Shown here piece by piece: positions 5,223 through 48,318 of a stretch of 64,000 nucleotides of DNA. Positions within the stretch are counted from its first letter, which is position 1. Each line of letters opens with the position of its first letter. A program made the position numbers and the translations under genes. Source of the stretch: Desulfovibrio sp. JC010 (GTDB taxonomy: Bacteria; Desulfobacterota; Desulfovibrionia; Desulfovibrionales; Desulfovibrionaceae); assembly GCF_010470675.1 (NCBI RefSeq), contig NZ_VOIQ01000002.1, positions 124,001-188,000 on the forward strand. Reading direction: 5' to 3'. The notes beneath the pieces were generated by a model, which made no database searches, was not told the DNA's origin, and worked only from the letters and a program-made list of their open reading frames with translations.

Positions 5223-6218
5223 ATGGTACTCACCGACAAGATAGGCCGGACCGTCAGCTATCTGCGGCTGAGCGTTACCGACCGCTGCAACCTGCGCTGC
5301 ATGTATTGCGTGACCAAGGATTTCCAGTTCATCCCCCACCCGAACATCCTGCGCTACGAGGAAATGCTGCGGCTGGTGGATATTGCCGCGACCATGAACA
5401 TCACCAAACTGCGGCTCACCGGAGGCGAACCCTTTGCCCGCCGGGGATTCATGGATTTCATCGCCGCGGTCATGAAAAACCATCCGGAACTGGACCTGCG
5501 CATCACCACCAACGGAACACTCATTGAACCGCTGGTGCCGGAGCTTAAAAAAATCGGGGTCAACAGGCTGAACATATCGCTGGATACCCTTGACCGTGAG
5601 ACTTTCAAGGAAGTGACCGGACGTGATCATTTAAATGATGTACTGGCAACCATCGAAGCCTGCCTTTCCGCCGGGATCAAGATCAAGGTCAATGCCGTGG
5701 CCATGAAAGGCATCAATGATAAAGAACTAGGTTCATTCATCGATTTTGCCAAAGAGAATCCCATCGACATGCGTTTCATCGAGTTCATGCCCATGGGCGA
5801 TGACACCAAATCCGACAGCAGATTCTGGTCTGCTGACGATATCCTCGAACAGGGTCGCCAGCACGCCGCACTGGAAAAAATAAAGGTCAGGCCGGAAAAC
5901 CACGGCCCCGCGCGCATGTACTCCATCGAAGGCGGCAAGGGAAGGCTGGGATTAATTTCCCCGGTCAGTTCACATTTCTGCGCCACCTGCAACAGGCTGC
6001 GCATCACTTCCGACGGCCAGCTGCGGACCTGTCTTTTTTCCGACAAGACCTACGGACTGCGTGAAATTTTAAGGAACCCGGACATGGATGACGATGCCGT
6101 ACGCATGGTCATAGCGGAGGCCACCATGGACAAACCGCTGGGGTACCATCTCCTAGAACAAAGATCATCAGGATGTGAAGGTGTATGCGAAACACAGATG
6201 TCGGCCATAGGCGGATAG
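5223..6218 (+). CDS. moaA: GTP 3',8-cyclase MoaA
   Basis: MoaA is the radical-SAM enzyme that converts GTP to the cyclic precursor for molybdopterin. In the 331 residues the N-terminal CNLRCMYC (C22, C26, C29) binds the SAM cluster. The C-terminal FCATCNRLR (C253, C256) with C270 forms the second 4Fe-4S cluster in the expected CX2CX13C spacing. The polypeptide ends in Gly-Gly, the essential MoaA tail. RLTGGEPF is the SAM-binding GGE motif. Linkage to fdhD/fdhE and tupABC ties pterin synthesis to formate dehydrogenase maturation. Confidence 0.95.
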
Positions 6219-6229
6219 AAGGATCAGTC

Positions 6230-7114
6230 ATGAATGCTGTTTCTGAAAGTAGGGATGAACTGCTGGCGCGTCTGAGCTCCTCCGAAGAGGAAGCCAGAAA
6301 TTTCCTGCTGCACAAAGCCCTCGGTGACCGCAAAGCCTTCTGCCCCCGCTGCCGGGAGCACAAGCTCTACAACTTAAACGGCGAGCGTTACCGCTGCTCT
6401 TCCTGCAAGTACACCTTTCAGGATTTCAGCGGTCGCTGGATCAACAACGGCGGCCTTTCCTCCCGCGAATGGGTGCGCCTGATCCAGATGTTCGCCGAAG
6501 ACCACACCGCCCACGCCATCTCTCTTGATCTGGAACTTTCCTACAACGCCACCTACAAGGCCATCACCGCGCTCAGGTTCGCAATCTTAGCACAGGCAAT
6601 CGATGCCCAGCAGTTGCTCAGTCCGGAAACCGGGCTGCACACCCATCTCAAGAACAAAAAACTGACCGGGGTACCTTCCAAGAAAGTAACCGGGACCATT
6701 CCCGTATTCGGAATAATGGAAAAAAACGGCTGGGTGTTCATCGATTTAATGCAGAACATCACTGCGGAATCGGTATTCCACTTCAACCACAACTTCCACC
6801 TCAAGCTGGTCCGCCACGGGTCCATCATCCACACCGACCGCTACCAGAAATACGATTCCCTGATCCTCTGCGGAGACGATTCCCTGCCGCTCGATTACAT
6901 CCGCAAATACCCGGACATCACCCCGCACATAGAAATTTCCGGCGGTGAATTCTGGCAATTCGCACGTCAGCGTTTCAAGCGTTACAAGGGTATATCCCCG
7001 CACCGCTTTCCCTTATATCTGAAAGAGTTAGAATTTCGGTTTAACAATCGTTCAAAGGATTTGTTTGATTTATTGACCGGGTATATTTGTAAGATTGTGC
7101 CTGATGTGGATTAG
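6230..7114 (+). CDS. IS1595/ISXO2-like transposase-derived protein, probably domesticated
   Basis: The 294 residues follow the IS1595-family layout. There is an N-terminal zinc ribbon (C38, C41, C56, C59, ending SCKYTFQDFSGRW), a helix-turn-helix-like region (about 80-120), then an RNase H-like half. That half holds HTDRYQKY (D203), GGEFW (E240) and the family tail YLKELEFRFNNR. The first catalytic acid, normally in a VExDE motif, is not visible around residues 125-145. I saw no terminal inverted repeats or target duplications. It starts 11 bases after moaA with AAGGA upstream, so it behaves as the last gene of the fdhE-moaA operon. A DNA-binding regulator derived from a transposase is my inference. 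Confidence 0.7.
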   Translation: MNAVSESRDELLARLSSSEEEARNFLLHKALGDRKAFCPRCREHKLYNLNGERYRCSSCKYTFQDFSGRWINNGGLSSREWVRLIQMFAEDHTAHAISLDLELSYNATYKAITALRFAILAQAIDAQQLLSPETGLHTHLKNKKLTGVPSKKVTGTIPVFGIMEKNGWVFIDLMQNITAESVFHFNHNFHLKLVRHGSIIHTDRYQKYDSLILCGDDSLPLDYIRKYPDITPHIEISGGEFWQFARQRFKRYKGISPHRFPLYLKELEFRFNNRSKDLFDLLTGYICKIVPDVD

Positions 7115-7278
7115 GGATTTGACTTTTTATTCACAAGATATATATCAAAAAAGAAAATGTTGTTTAGGTTATCCCTAATCAACATTTTTATTTACTTTTG
7201 CAGACGAACCAATTAGCGGAAAGCTTACCCACTATTTTTTGGACAATTTTCATTAAGACTGTTCAAAATTGCGAGGCA

Positions 7279-7815
7279 ATGAGTATTTTAAATTTCGAAT
7301 TCACCGATAAAATTATCCCTGACGCTTTTCACGGCACTTCAGCTAAAGCCGCAGAGGAAATTTTAAGGACTCAAACCTTCGTTGAAAGTGATGATAAATC
7401 TTTTTTGGGTAAGGGTGTTTATTTTTACGAAGCGTCAAAAAAATCCGCTATTGATTGGGCTGAAAATAAACACGGCATAGATATCACCGTTATTCAAGCT
7501 AAAATTCAACTTGGCTCGTGTTTTGATCTTCATAACGCAGAACACGAAATGGCTTTTACCCACTTAAAAAGCCAACTTGAATATATGGGCAAAGGACGCG
7601 ACATGACCGATGCCTTTGTGATAAATTATATGGTAGAAAAAATATGCACGCAAATAGAAACGGTAAGGTGCTCCATTCCGAAAGGATTTCGTAAAGGGTA
7701 TCATAATCCTCTAGTTAAAAATGGAGTCATTCCCCGTAAGAATGAAATTTATATTTGCGTCAGAGAGCAAAAAAATATTTTAGAATTGCAAGAAGCTAAA
7801 GGAGGTATTTCATGA
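7279..7815 (+). CDS. PARP-like ADP-ribosyltransferase, probable toxin of a TAC system
   Basis: The 178-residue protein shows the ART-fold triad: HGT at residues 18-20, LGKGVYFYE with Y48, and NEIYI with E156. This matches the H-Y-E arrangement of PARP-type transferases, which use NAD to ADP-ribosylate a target. The start was set at ATG 7279 (GAGG upstream) rather than an upstream TTG at 7198. The next gene starts inside its last codons (ATGA overlap). With the small protein and SecB-like protein downstream, the layout equals that of CmdTAC phage-defence loci, whose CmdT modifies mRNA. The actual target here is unknown. Base composition is distinctly AT-rich compared with moaA, suggesting transfer. 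Confidence 0.72.
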   Translation: MSILNFEFTDKIIPDAFHGTSAKAAEEILRTQTFVESDDKSFLGKGVYFYEASKKSAIDWAENKHGIDITVIQAKIQLGSCFDLHNAEHEMAFTHLKSQLEYMGKGRDMTDAFVINYMVEKICTQIETVRCSIPKGFRKGYHNPLVKNGVIPRKNEIYICVREQKNILELQEAKGGIS

Positions 7816-8069
7816 CAAATCTTACGTTTGAATACCTTAAGGGATTAATTGACGAACACTTCGATGGAATGACCAACGAAGTGTTCGAAAAGAATTTAAT
7901 CGAAACAGATTATGAATTCTATAGCAATATTCATGTATCCCTTTTAAACAGATACAAGGGACAAACTAGAAATTCAAGTTCATCCAGCGCATTTGATGAT
8001 ATTGTCTTTGAAGCATTTGACTTTAAGCATAGTTGTTTTGACTGCGCTGAGTACGCTAAGGCCGCATAA
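7812..8069 (+). CDS. Small protein, probable antitoxin of the ART/SecB-like cassette
   Basis: An 85-residue acidic protein with no recognised DNA-binding domain. It overlaps the ART gene by four bases and has a perfect AAAGGAGG 6 bases before its ATG, so it should be translated more efficiently than the toxin. There is a serine-rich linker (about residues 54-59), then a tail rich in aromatic and acidic residues (DDIVFEAFDFKHSC). In chaperone-addicted antitoxins the C-terminal segment is what the SecB-like chaperone binds, and this tail is a candidate. The role is inferred entirely from position and size. Confidence 0.6.
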   Translation: MTNLTFEYLKGLIDEHFDGMTNEVFEKNLIETDYEFYSNIHVSLLNRYKGQTRNSSSSSAFDDIVFEAFDFKHSCFDCAEYAKAA

Positions 8070-8079
8070 GGATTATAAT

Positions 8080-8499
8080 ATGTCAGACATGAAGGTTCAC
8101 CCTATTCAGCTTGTTTCAGTTGGTGTCAAAAAACTTGAAGCTGAAGCTTTCGCTTTTCCTGAGCCTAATGTTCAGGCTGATGGGGATTCATTTTCTTTTG
8201 AATTTGGTCACTCTGAATTTGATAAAGAAGAAAGATCAATTTCAGTAGGTGTGAACATTGAGATCGGTACAGAGAAATGCAATCAAGAAAATCCTCCTTT
8301 TGCGTTAAAAGTTGAATTAATAGGTCATTTTGAAGTAGACACAGAACAATTTGATATTGAACATATAGACCATTGGGCACGGCATAATGCTCCATTGCTA
8401 CTATACCCTTATTTGAGAGAGCACGCCTTCGCTTTGTCGGCAAGACTAGGGTTTACTCCTGTTCTATTGCCGCTACTACAGATACCGTCTTCAAAATAA
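8080..8499 (+). CDS. SecB-like chaperone, third gene of the toxin-antitoxin-chaperone cassette
   Basis: A 139-residue protein with the SecB fold signature in its C-terminal half: a strand-rich core, then HWARHNAPLLLYPYLREHA (about residues 101-119) and GFTPVLLPLLQIP. These correspond to SecB's LFPYARE...GFPxLxLxPVNF region. The N-terminal half is shorter and divergent from housekeeping SecB. AAGGA lies 8 bases before ATG 8080. Solitary SecB-like proteins next to toxin-antitoxin pairs protect the antitoxin from proteolysis (TAC systems). It closes the three-gene unit, which ends at a strong terminator. Confidence 0.75.
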   Translation: MSDMKVHPIQLVSVGVKKLEAEAFAFPEPNVQADGDSFSFEFGHSEFDKEERSISVGVNIEIGTEKCNQENPPFALKVELIGHFEVDTEQFDIEHIDHWARHNAPLLLYPYLREHAFALSARLGFTPVLLPLLQIPSSK

Positions 8500-8501
8500 T
8501 T

Positions 8502-8538
8502 AAAGGCTGGTTTTCTACACGAAAACCAGCCTTTTCTA
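8502..8538 (+). terminator. Rho-independent terminator after the TAC cassette
   Basis: Perfect 14-bp stem (8502-8515 with 8521-8534), 5-base loop, then a short T-rich tract. It also has A/T tracts on the other side and could serve the convergent diguanylate cyclase gene. Confidence 0.85.
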
Positions 8539-8560
8539 TTTGAATATCAAACCCAACCTT

Positions 8561-8590
8561 ACCCTAAAACAAACTCCCCTACCCCCCAGC
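8561..8590. repeat. Direct repeat of the ruvB 3' end (copy downstream of cyclase gene)
   Basis: Bases 8561-8580 are identical to 10101-10120, and the match continues to about 8590 with two substitutions. Read on the minus strand it encodes GG-stop-GSLF-stop, against GGQGSLF-stop at the real ruvB end. The Gln codon CAG has become TAG, and this TAG now serves as the stop of the cyclase gene. Confidence 0.85.
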
Positions 8591-45001: not shown

Positions 45002-45901
45002 TCACCCTTCCAGTACCATATTCCGGCCTTTCTTTTTGGCCAGGTAAAGGGCATCGTCAGCCCTCTTCATCAGACTTCTCTGGCTGTCGCCTGCAATAAA
45101 CTGGGTCACACCGAAGCTTGCGGTCACGCGCCCGGCCCCGTCAAAAGCATGGTCAGCAACCCTGCTGCGCAGTTTCTCGGCCATTTTCAATACTGCGTCA
45201 AGATCCGTTTCAGGACAGATAATGACAAATTCCTCCCCGCCCCAGCGGCCTAGAAGATCACTCTGACGCAGATTTTCTACAAGAAGACGACAGAATTCAA
45301 CGAGCACTTCATCCCCGACCTGATGCCCGAAAGTATCATTAATGCTTTTGAATCGGTCAATATCCAGAATTACAAAAGAAAATTCACGGCCATAACGTTC
45401 TGTGCGGTCAATTTCAGCATGAAGGGCTTTTTCAAGACTCAATCTGTTCAGAACCCCGGTCAAATTGTCATGGGCGGCCAGATGCTCCAGCTGCCTGGTC
45501 TTCAAGGCCAGACTGGCATGGGCCTCCACCAGTTTGTTCTGCACTTCCTTCAGCTCGGTGATATCAACGGCGATAGTGTGTTTTACTGTGCGCCCATCCG
45601 GCCAGCTAAGAGCTTTTTCCTGCAGCTGATACCAGCGGTCATTACGTTCATTGAACTTTTCAACAGTCAGGCTCAGTCCGTTAGGCCCCCTTTTATCATC
45701 CACCAATTGCGGAATGCGACAGTCGATGCACGGAGCTTCATGACCGTAAAGAGCTTCGTAGCAGGTATTATCAGTGCGATCCCCGAAGACGGCTTTAAAA
45801 CTGCTGTTACAAAAAACTATCTCGTAACTATTTATATCAATAACATAAATGGGAAATGGAATTATGTTGAAATGAGTTTCAAACAAAGTATTTTCAAGCA
45901 T
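45002..45901 (-). CDS. Soluble PAS-GGDEF diguanylate cyclase with cysteine-bearing PAS
   Basis: 299 residues from ATG 45901 (GGAG upstream). The PAS domain (about 5-125) holds C47, C58 and C61 in CYEALYGHEAPCIDCRI and a PAC-like VKHTIAVDITEL. A short coiled coil leads to the GGDEF domain (about 140-299): DNLTGVLNR, active site WGGEEF, and I-site RQSD five residues before it. No TM, so it reads an internal signal. The PAS is clearly paralogous to that of the upstream kinase, which ends 13 bases before this start. Confidence 0.9.
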   Translation of the reverse strand: MLENTLFETHFNIIPFPIYVIDINSYEIVFCNSSFKAVFGDRTDNTCYEALYGHEAPCIDCRIPQLVDDKRGPNGLSLTVEKFNERNDRWYQLQEKALSWPDGRTVKHTIAVDITELKEVQNKLVEAHASLALKTRQLEHLAAHDNLTGVLNRLSLEKALHAEIDRTERYGREFSFVILDIDRFKSINDTFGHQVGDEVLVEFCRLLVENLRQSDLLGRWGGEEFVIICPETDLDAVLKMAEKLRSRVADHAFDGAGRVTASFGVTQFIAGDSQRSLMKRADDALYLAKKKGRNMVLEG

Positions 45902-45913
45902 CAAACAACTCCG

Positions 45914-47074
45914 TCAATATTGACCTTTACCTTTACACGAAAGCGAAACAACAACCGTTGTGCGATCCTCAACAGAAGAATCCAGATCAATCTTCCCGCC
46001 ATGGGCCCGCGCAATCAGGCTGGCGGAATATGTCCCCAGTCCGGTCCCGCCCTGCTTGCTGTATGTGGAATATTTTTCAAAGAAACGGCTGCGTATCTCT
46101 TTGGGAACCCCACCCTCATTGGTTATTGAGAGATAGGCATCACCGCCATCAACACTCAGATCCAGCTTTACCAATCCTCTATCCGGAGATGCTTCAATGG
46201 CATTCTTTATCAAATTCGAAAACATGGAACGACAGAGAAGGATTTCCCCGTTAAGGAGAAATTCAGTAGAATCATCAACTTCCTGACCGTCTAAATAATA
46301 TTTAAACTCAAGATTCTTATACTTTGAGAAAGATTCAAGGGATCCGGAAACCCTGAACAGGAGATCCAGCAGATCAAACTCTTCACTCTTTAATTTGTAA
46401 GTACCGCGCTCAAGCTGGATCATATCCTGAGAATTATTGACCATACCCAGAATCTCGTTCCCGGCAAGAGAGATCAGACCAAAAGAACTGCGCACGTCTT
46501 CGGAAATTGAATCGTCGTTAACATACAATTCCGGCAGAGAAAGTATGGGATTAAGCGGTCCTTTAAGATCATGATGAAGCATGCGCTCCATATCTTCACG
46601 CAATCGCACGTTTTCCTTCAGCAATTCATTCCGGCGACGCAAATCCTTATTCTTCAGGGCCAATTCCGCATGAGCTTCTGCAAGCTGATTCTGGGTAGAT
46701 TTCTGCGAGCTTATATCCACTGCAATTGTATATTTAACAATACGTCCGTCCGGCCATGCCAATGACTTTTCATGCATCTGAAACCATTGCTCATGAGCCT
46801 CATTATAGTACTCATAGGCAAACAAATGATCCACAGGATGACCTTCATGATCAGTCAATTGTTTTATTTTACAATGAAGACACGGCTTATCTTCATTATA
46901 AAAAATTTCGTAGCAAGGCTTACTTAGATCTATGTCAGAGAACTGCTGACGCATTTTCTTGTTTACAAACAGAACTTCAAAGCTGGATACATCCACAACA
47001 TATATATGAAACGGAATTATATCAAAATATGTCTGGAGCAACATTTGTTCCATTACTAAACACTGAGAATCCAT
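45914..47074 (-). CDS. Soluble PAS sensor histidine kinase with cysteine-bearing PAS
   Basis: 386 residues from ATG 47074 (GAGGCGGGA upstream). The PAS domain (about 10-130) has C54, C65 and C68 in CYEIFYNEDKPCLHCKI. A coiled coil (about 135-175) is followed by HisKA with MLHHDLKGPLNPIL (phospho-His in HHDLKGP). The HATPase has NLIKNAIEASP and GGTGLGTYSASLI. There is no receiver or TM segment. First gene of a three-gene operon with a GGDEF protein and a TPR protein; its cognate response regulator is not adjacent. Confidence 0.9.
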   Translation of the reverse strand: MDSQCLVMEQMLLQTYFDIIPFHIYVVDVSSFEVLFVNKKMRQQFSDIDLSKPCYEIFYNEDKPCLHCKIKQLTDHEGHPVDHLFAYEYYNEAHEQWFQMHEKSLAWPDGRIVKYTIAVDISSQKSTQNQLAEAHAELALKNKDLRRRNELLKENVRLREDMERMLHHDLKGPLNPILSLPELYVNDDSISEDVRSSFGLISLAGNEILGMVNNSQDMIQLERGTYKLKSEEFDLLDLLFRVSGSLESFSKYKNLEFKYYLDGQEVDDSTEFLLNGEILLCRSMFSNLIKNAIEASPDRGLVKLDLSVDGGDAYLSITNEGGVPKEIRSRFFEKYSTYSKQGGTGLGTYSASLIARAHGGKIDLDSSVEDRTTVVVSLSCKGKGQY

Positions 47075-47421
47075 AAGTCCCGCCTCTATAACACAACTAA
47101 CAAAACTGACAACATAAACACAAGACGCCTGTAATAAAACATATGGCATTTAACCTGCAAATGCAATTGTGTTCCGCCGAGTACTGTGAAGATCTTTCCT
47201 GCATACAACCATCCCTATATATTCTAAATAAATGTTCTTTTCTTACATTACGATTCTGTTAACTGCTCTGAGGAATAACTTAATAATATTTACACACGAC
47301 AAACGAACTGCTATATCACAAAATCAAATCTCCCCATCAGGGTCCCGCTGAAAAACTCTTCCCTGTTTTTTATTTAACTGAAACCTCCTTCTATAACAGG
47401 TAACATTGGACAGGAGACAAA

Positions 47422-47943
47422 ATGTCGGAAAAGGAAACCATCAAAAGCCTGATAACAGCTGTTGAACACAGATGCAGAAACTATCTCCAAGATGAAATGG
47501 AACTTCCGGTAAAAACTGTGGAACATGCGCCGCAGCAGGTAAAAAGCCTGACCCTGAAAGACATGACAGCACTTGTCAGTCTGGGCGGCAGTTTCAATGT
47601 TTATATCGCCTTCAGTTTCGAGATGAAAGTAATGAAGCAGATATTCAACACATACACTGCCGATATTGAAATCGATCCCGATGAAGAGGACATGTACATA
47701 GAAGAGACTGCCGGAGATGTAATCAATACCGTAATCGGCAATGCCATGGCGGAGATCCCGGAAGACAGTGTTGCAATATCCCTCACCCCGCCCGTTGTCC
47801 TGCCCGGCGCAAGAAACATTACCCGGCATAAAGACGCCTATTTTTTTATGACCGACTTCATAACCGAGCTTGGCACCATGTCCGTCATGTACATCGGTCC
47901 CATGAAATTTTTCACCACAAACCTCGACTTAAAGGTAGATTAA
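47422..47943 (+). CDS. CheX/CheC-family chemotaxis phosphatase-like protein
   Basis: 173 residues with the CheX fold signature: SLGGSFNVYIAFSFEMKVMKQIF in the N-terminal half, and the helix EETAGDVINTVIGNAM (about 94-109) carrying the E...N catalytic pattern that dephosphorylates CheY-P. The gene directly abuts the following cheY-like gene, whose ATG begins at the next base. CheX proteins terminate chemotaxis-type phosphorelays; here it presumably acts on that neighbour. Confidence 0.82.
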   Translation: MSEKETIKSLITAVEHRCRNYLQDEMELPVKTVEHAPQQVKSLTLKDMTALVSLGGSFNVYIAFSFEMKVMKQIFNTYTADIEIDPDEEDMYIEETAGDVINTVIGNAMAEIPEDSVAISLTPPVVLPGARNITRHKDAYFFMTDFITELGTMSVMYIGPMKFFTTNLDLKVD

Positions 47944-48318
47944 ATGGAAGCTTTAAACGTCCTAGTTGTAGACGATTCCGGAATTGTCATCATGAAACTC
48001 AGCAAAATATTCAAAGAGCTGGGACATAATGTTGTGGGGTCGGCAAAAACCGGAGTACAGGCTATTGAGCAGTACGCCGAACTGAATCCGGACCTTGTGA
48101 CCATGGATATCACCATGCCGGACATGAACGGCATTGAAGCCACACAGAAAATACTGGAACAGGATGAAAATGCCACCATCATCATGGTCACCTCCCACGG
48201 TCAGGAACAGATGGTTATGGACGCCATTGATGCCGGGGCCAAAGGATACATCCTTAAGCCCTTTTATGCTGATAAAATTCAGGCCCATCTTGAAAAAATA
48301 TTCGCAGCCGAAGATTAG
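47944..48318 (+). CDS. CheY-like single-domain response regulator
   Basis: A 124-residue receiver with the acidic pair VVDDSG (about 8-13), phospho-acceptor Asp in VTMDITMPDMNG (about 53), Thr/Ser switch MVTSHG (about 80-85) and Lys in YILKPF (about 104). There is no output domain. It follows cheX without spacer and precedes the CheA-like kinase gene, its probable phosphodonor. Confidence 0.92.
   Translation: MEALNVLVVDDSGIVIMKLSKIFKELGHNVVGSAKTGVQAIEQYAELNPDLVTMDITMPDMNGIEATQKILEQDENATIIMVTSHGQEQMVMDAIDAGAKGYILKPFYADKIQAHLEKIFAAED

Follow-up and report, generated by a model that had tools for sequence, protein, structure and literature searches.

Toxin-antitoxin-chaperone (TAC) systems, in which a SecB-like chaperone guards the antitoxin, are the closest described counterparts of the locus reported here: a three-gene cassette in a stretch of 64,000 nucleotides from Desulfovibrio sp. 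JC010 (contig NZ_VOIQ01000002.1, positions 124,001 to 188,000). This whole stretch is referred to as the window, and coordinates follow its numbering unless they are given with a locus identifier. In the CmdTAC system of Escherichia coli, the trigger is the T4 capsid and the target is N6-adenine in mRNA, according to the accessible portions of PMC11618068. The antitoxin CmdA has two helices at its N-terminus and is unstructured at its C-terminus. It ends in LAA, a ClpXP signal, as do other TAC antitoxins, and ClpP is required (same portions of PMC11618068). In the HigBA1-SecBTA (Rv1955-Rv1957) and MqsRAC systems, a SecB-like chaperone likewise guards the C-terminal region of the antitoxin, but the toxins and antitoxins belong to other families (available text of PMC5105189 and PMC8165232). 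The ClpX degron of Mycobacterium tuberculosis HigA1 lies inside its chaperone-binding tail, as the available text of PMC8165232 describes.

The cassette consists of three genes on the + strand, here called T (7279..7815), A (7812..8069), and C (8080..8499). We consider it quite probable that it is a divergent CmdTAC-type toxin-antitoxin-chaperone operon for phage defence. The first-pass annotation had suggested such a cassette, and this claim is supported by matches to the PADLOC models PD-T4-9_A and PD-T4-9_C, an ADP-ribosyltransferase (ART) fold, a SecB family match, and the co-conservation of the three genes. The resemblance to CmdTAC of E. coli ECOR22 includes the T-A-C order, with an ART carrying H and Y motifs first, a small variable protein second, and a SecB-like protein third, as well as the putatively ClpXP-like tail of the antitoxin. 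The cassette differs from it in its low profile scores, in an A protein that ends in KAA instead of LAA, and in a host that displayed neither a Pfam SspB match nor another SecB match.

The product of T (178 residues) is a predicted ART-fold toxin. It matched PD-T4-9_A with 38.6 bits (E-value 2.9e-10). The PD-T4-9 models are those of CmdTAC, since PD-T4-9 has been renamed CmdTAC, and from gene order and ART content we infer that PD-T4-9_A, which has no curated cut-off, represents CmdT. The score against Pfam PARP (25.4 bits) was slightly below the cut-off of 26.7. The AlphaFold2 model of T, proposed in the first-pass annotation as a check, displayed an ART-type fold with a predicted local distance difference test score (pLDDT) of 81. 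Its structural neighbours were NatT, MbcT, tankyrase, and PARP, with a best Foldseek E-value of 4.4e-3, and the best 50 Foldseek matches listed were ART-type folds, Tpt1 included. Searching PDB sequences with a profile of T retrieved PARPs at E-values of at least 0.023 and NrdR at about 0.8-1, and a single-protein scan of genome contigs returned no relatives of T. The ART domains of NatRT, MbcTA, and PARP/tankyrase share 6-15% identity with T; we know of no chaperone-linked arrangement for any of them. The earlier remark that this ART lacks an obvious relation to known ARTs holds only in part: PD-T4-9_A does match T, although weakly.

H18 and Y48 were invariant in all 20 aligned TAC toxins. 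E156, the third member of the H18-Y48-E156 triad proposed at first, occupies what we take to be the position of the catalytic glutamate of PARP1. When aligned by eye, the corresponding residue is Q in three close relatives (L025, L033, and L057) and R in two others (L023 and L024), so that the first two residues of the triad stand and the third is not conserved. The published catalytic logo of CmdT is HY-[E,D,Q] (accessible portions of PMC11618068); a fixed H-Y-E triad is thus too strict, and T of the window, with H18, Y48, and E156, fits the logo. The predicted fold of T is also of the H-Y-E ART type, with both the H and the Y motifs.

C is a SecB-like chaperone of 139 residues. It scored 28.8 bits against Pfam SecB (cut-off 26) and 37.4 bits against PD-T4-9_C (E-value 6.2e-10), matches that bear out the earlier description of the third protein as SecB-type. 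A profile of six C relatives matched both SecB (1fx3) and the TAC chaperone Rv1957 (5mtw). By the rule of the CmdTAC paper, which uses DefenseFinder models, a CmdC homologue lies within two genes of CmdT; with the PADLOC models used here, the PD-T4-9_C match lies one gene away from the PD-T4-9_A match. C was the sole SecB match in its genome, which would suit a protein that is simply the export SecB of the cell, with the two upstream genes as unrelated neighbours. We find this explanation barely credible, because the best score of C against the NCBIfam secB equivalogs was 21.8 bits, far under the cut-off of 143, because the cassette was not at this site in the nine congeners examined, and above all because an ART gene and a small gene likewise precede 19 of 22 informative relatives. 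A housekeeping SecB neighbour was rejected on the ground that the upstream ART and small gene are co-conserved.

These relatives of C derive from 23 loci (4 plasmids, 10 genome contigs, and 9 viral contigs), of which 22 are informative, L035 being cut off upstream; several are near-duplicates, e.g., L020/L022, L037/L038, and L039/L040. The order in the 19 loci is ART, small protein, and C, meaning that the gene triplet that was to be sought in other genomes does recur there. Together with the Pfam SecB match, this indicates a SecB-family chaperone kept as a unit with a toxin-antitoxin pair, in which the roles of A and C are putative. L027 encodes a DUF4258 protein and an MqsA/helix-turn-helix-like antitoxin in place of the ART and A, and broken loci were also found: L031, with a stop inside T (likewise L053), and L032, of which there are pieces only. 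Other searches yielded two more TACs of the same type as the window, in L057 and in the phage-labelled faecal contig L008. Neighbours annotated as defence genes were abortive infection genes (L020 and L022) and a type ISP restriction enzyme (L021), with Pfam support in L020 and L021. The tree of C proteins had low resolution, with stars on 6 of its 21 inner branches, and toxin swapping was neither supported nor rejected by it.

Further searches gave few additional members. No relatives of A were found in plasmids, nor any match in viral contigs to the chaperone and toxin of L008, whose operon was also not found in E. coli genomes; the L057 toxin returned its own contig alone from the viral contigs. 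ECOR22-like CmdTAC was sought in Enterobacteriaceae, where 4 of 369 genomes displayed a toxin-profile match, three of them with two-gene modules only, and none of the sequence searches made returned proteins identifiable as the ECOR22 CmdTAC reference. Separately, the control genome of Methanocaldococcus jannaschii matched SecB and PD-T4-9_A, and this archaeon may carry both parts.

A tree of 30 toxins grouped those of the window, L057, L023, L024, L025, and L033 into one window-type clade (97/95), outside of which the L008 toxin falls; nine two-gene ARTs adjoin this clade (86/87). Meanwhile, 14 toxins of what we label WW-type TACs (label applied to L019-L022, L026, L028-L030, L034, L036-L041, and L048) formed a separate clade (100/99). 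Comparison of profiles with hhalign gave 6e-26 for window type versus two-gene toxins, 2e-10 for window type versus WW type, and 9e-9 for two-gene toxins versus WW type. By tree and profile comparison, two-gene ART modules without a chaperone are closer kin of the window-type clade than are WW-type toxins with related chaperones. PD-T4-9_A matched all six window-type toxins (window, L023, L024, L025, L033, and L057) and both two-gene toxins tested, and none of five WW-type toxins (L048 and L020 at E-values up to 0.1; L034, L036, and L019 at up to 0.01). This pattern of PADLOC matches would place the known CmdT probably on the same side of the tree as the window toxin, and WW-type toxins were for the same reason dropped as the canonical CmdT. 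The WW-type systems share with the cassette a related chaperone, the same gene order, and mostly ssrA-like antitoxin tails, and differ from it in their separate toxin clade and in the five toxins unmatched by PD-T4-9_A. As observations on the WW type itself, an annotated DNA primase family gene precedes the ART-TAC of E. coli CI5 (L048:6001-7394), and that of L040 (L040:4057-5453) has a large primase-like open reading frame upstream, as seen by eye; a megablast search of 5426 complete E. coli genomes with L040 as query gave one match, namely L048.

The two-gene ART modules (L003-L005, L007, L009, L050-L052, and L055) are found on plasmids and chromosomes. Their toxins are the closest to T outside its clade, but their small partner (56-93 residues) lies upstream of the ART and not downstream as A does. 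T matched 21 plasmid records, 14 of which were typed conjugative; among the 6 records examined, 5 carried an intact pair of small gene and ART, and the same pair was present in L050, L051, L052, and L055. No SecB was annotated within 4 kb of the ART on the six plasmids, and inspection of the shorter genome stretches by eye revealed none. Two of the small partners were searched against Pfam, and no match was found.

Several observations weigh against a CmdTAC-type operon. The PADLOC matches score modestly (37-39 bits), and it is through these profiles, rather than through direct comparison with CmdT, CmdA, and CmdC of ECOR22, that the likeness to CmdTAC is drawn. E156 is not kept as E in five relatives of the clade. 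A large cleft with positive charge is described for CmdT (accessible portions of PMC11618068); with an isoelectric point of 6.6, T is not basic overall, and this value does not speak for binding of nucleic acids. Next to the cassette, the window displayed no recognised defence gene, although none was searched for there. In addition, T is closer to two-gene ARTs without an annotated chaperone than to other chaperone-linked ARTs. This kinship of the clade would also fit a system of the same chaperone-gated design in which the effector, instead of modifying mRNA as CmdT does, depletes NAD+ or modifies another target such as tRNA, DNA, or protein. We regard such an effector as possible but rather unlikely, and a CmdTAC-type operon remains our preferred reading.

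The compact layout reported at first was recovered in full. All three open reading frames were found as described, with an ATGA overlap between T and A and a gap of 10 bases between A and C. The strong ribosome site attributed to the second gene is an AGGAGG (7800..7805, + strand) within the 3′ end of T, 6 bases 5′ of the ATG of A. The terminator said to close the unit corresponds to a perfect, computed stem of 14 bp (8502..8534), the top-ranking terminator-like site of the region, which resembles a bidirectional intrinsic terminator common to the cassette and the convergent GGDEF gene. Three terminator-like sites were detected in the region, two of which represent this stem read on either strand; shuffled sequence gave 0.9 sites on average.

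A encodes 85 residues, and profile scans returned no family match of weight for it. Its assignment as a putative antitoxin derives from its position between T and C and from 21-26% identity to five relatives in the same position. The last ten residues (FDCAEYAKAA; 8037..8066, + strand) form a putative ClpX degron resembling the transfer-messenger RNA (tmRNA) tag of the host, ANDNYDYAMAA, with 5 of 10 residues identical: A ends in AEYAKAA, and its YAKAA compares with YAMAA in the tag. We compared the tails of 23 antitoxins, leaving out the near-copies L038 and L039 and the unreadable L032 and L035. Among these, 18 ended in AA and 22 in AA, AV, or VA, against background frequencies of 1.4% and 2.4%, respectively (723 stop-bounded frames of at least 120 codons in the loci examined). 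That TAC antitoxin tails resemble tmRNA tags is a firm result of sequence comparison.

Tuning of the tails to the individual host is suggestive. Eight antitoxins could be paired with the tag of their own host, leaving out L028 and L030 (hosts without a tmRNA match) and the plasmid and viral antitoxins; the E. coli pair combines the antitoxin of strain CI5 with the tag of another strain, SLK172. Of the ten terminal residues, the number identical to the tag was 5 for the window, 7 for L023, 6 for L024, 4 for L025, 6 for L026, 10 for L027, 5 for L029, and 4 for L048, while 3 of 723 background ends reached a score of 4 of 10 with any of the eight tags, two of them being the antitoxins of L030 and L034. 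In the cassette of L027 (L027:4050-5444), the chaperone of which is 44% identical to C of the window, the antitoxin ends in ADNYGYALAA, an exact copy of the tag of its own host. Summed over the eight pairs, own tags fitted better than swapped ones, with 22 to 326 of 40320 permutations doing equally well, according to the length and score used; this test counts related rows (L023/L024 and L026/L029) as independent, which weighs against host tuning. So do the individual fits. By identity over ten residues, the own tag was the single best fit for L027 only, and the tag of another host was better by one residue for L023 (8 versus 7), L025 (5 versus 4), and L029 (6 versus 5). The window, L024, L026, and L048 tied with other tags, the window tail having 5 of 10 residues in common with each of five tags among the eight, its own included. 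Moreover, Pfam SspB was not found in the host genome, so that no reader is known there for the adaptor portion of the tag; the ClpX zinc finger was found.

Based on these comparisons, we put forward, as a tentative idea short of probable, that TAC antitoxins wear a copy of the tmRNA tag of their own host, with the tail following the tag of the lineage and the chaperone acting as a removable cap. No reports of host-matched tmRNA-tag copies on TAC antitoxins were found in the accessible text of the open-access literature searched. If the idea is true, TAC systems would be wired into the ClpXP surveillance of the host, and their host range would hinge on the tag match; the system of the window would be a moderately matched case, and L027, with its unrelated toxin, an exact copy.

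The cassette was also described at first as AT-rich and apparently acquired, and both parts of that description agree with our data. Its guanine-cytosine (GC) content is 36.9% versus 49.2% for the window, and a lower value occurs in 0.6% of sliding windows of 1221 bases. The upstream moaA was matched in 16 of the 17 genomes searched in the genus, that of the cassette included, and we examined the loci of 9 of the 15 relatives (L060-L068). A gene with IS1595 transposase domains follows moaA in all nine, and the cassette is not at this site in any of them. In the seven congeners L062-L068, the GGDEF gene follows after about 45-490 bp, with no gene where the window has its inserted stretch (7115..8578). 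The other two displayed different cargo: a 329-residue gene without a Pfam or PADLOC match in L060 (G193, L075), and a DUF6680 gene in L061 (G117, L076). PD-T4-9_A matched 1 of 199 genomes of the family (its own) and 2 of 395 of the phylum. As the site is variable in the genus and PD-T4-9_A is rare, the site is a small insertion hotspot in which the TAC is a rare arrival, and the cassette is an AT-rich insertion of about 1.4 kb. The IS1595-domain gene (6185-7114) was considered as its vehicle and rejected, being syntenic in all nine congeners examined. The window contains a second AT-rich stretch at 45801-48021 (GC content 38.8-41.7% in 1221-base windows).

The cassette stands alone as an insertion at its site, and TAC architecture by itself does not imply defence. 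It could hence be a stress or addiction module that stabilises a small island and plays no anti-phage role. We judge this unlikely, since CmdTAC and MqsRAC both protect E. coli (according to the available text of PMC9519451), and some relatives adjoin defence genes or sit in viral contigs.

For a CmdTAC-type defence operon, we infer the toxicity, neutralisation, degradation, trigger, and target as follows, with the capsid trigger and the mRNA target taken by analogy with E. coli CmdTAC. T would be an ART kept inactive by A, while C would cover the ssrA-like tail of A and shield A from ClpXP. C would be drawn off A by a phage product, by this analogy freshly synthesised major capsid protein, whereupon ClpXP would degrade A through its exposed tail and T would be freed. 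The freed T may then ADP-ribosylate its target, by the same analogy mRNA, such that translation would stop and the infection would be aborted.

Two IMG/VR viral contigs, L033 (2074-5444) and L057 (1763-7166), also carry a window-type TAC, in each case shortly downstream of the gene for a gpA-type large terminase. In L057, one small open reading frame separates the terminase from the TAC, and a lambda-type portal gene lies downstream. The presence of these systems in viral contigs raises the question of how a capsid-sensing system would spare its own phage.

These findings would extend phage defence by chaperone-gated ARTs to a sulfate reducer without any other SecB. They also tie CmdT-like toxins to chaperone-less two-gene modules, suggesting that a toxin-antitoxin pair could become a phage sensor by gaining a chaperone. 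Finally, they suggest a simple rule for the instability of TAC antitoxins, which may carry a near-copy of the host's own degradation tag.
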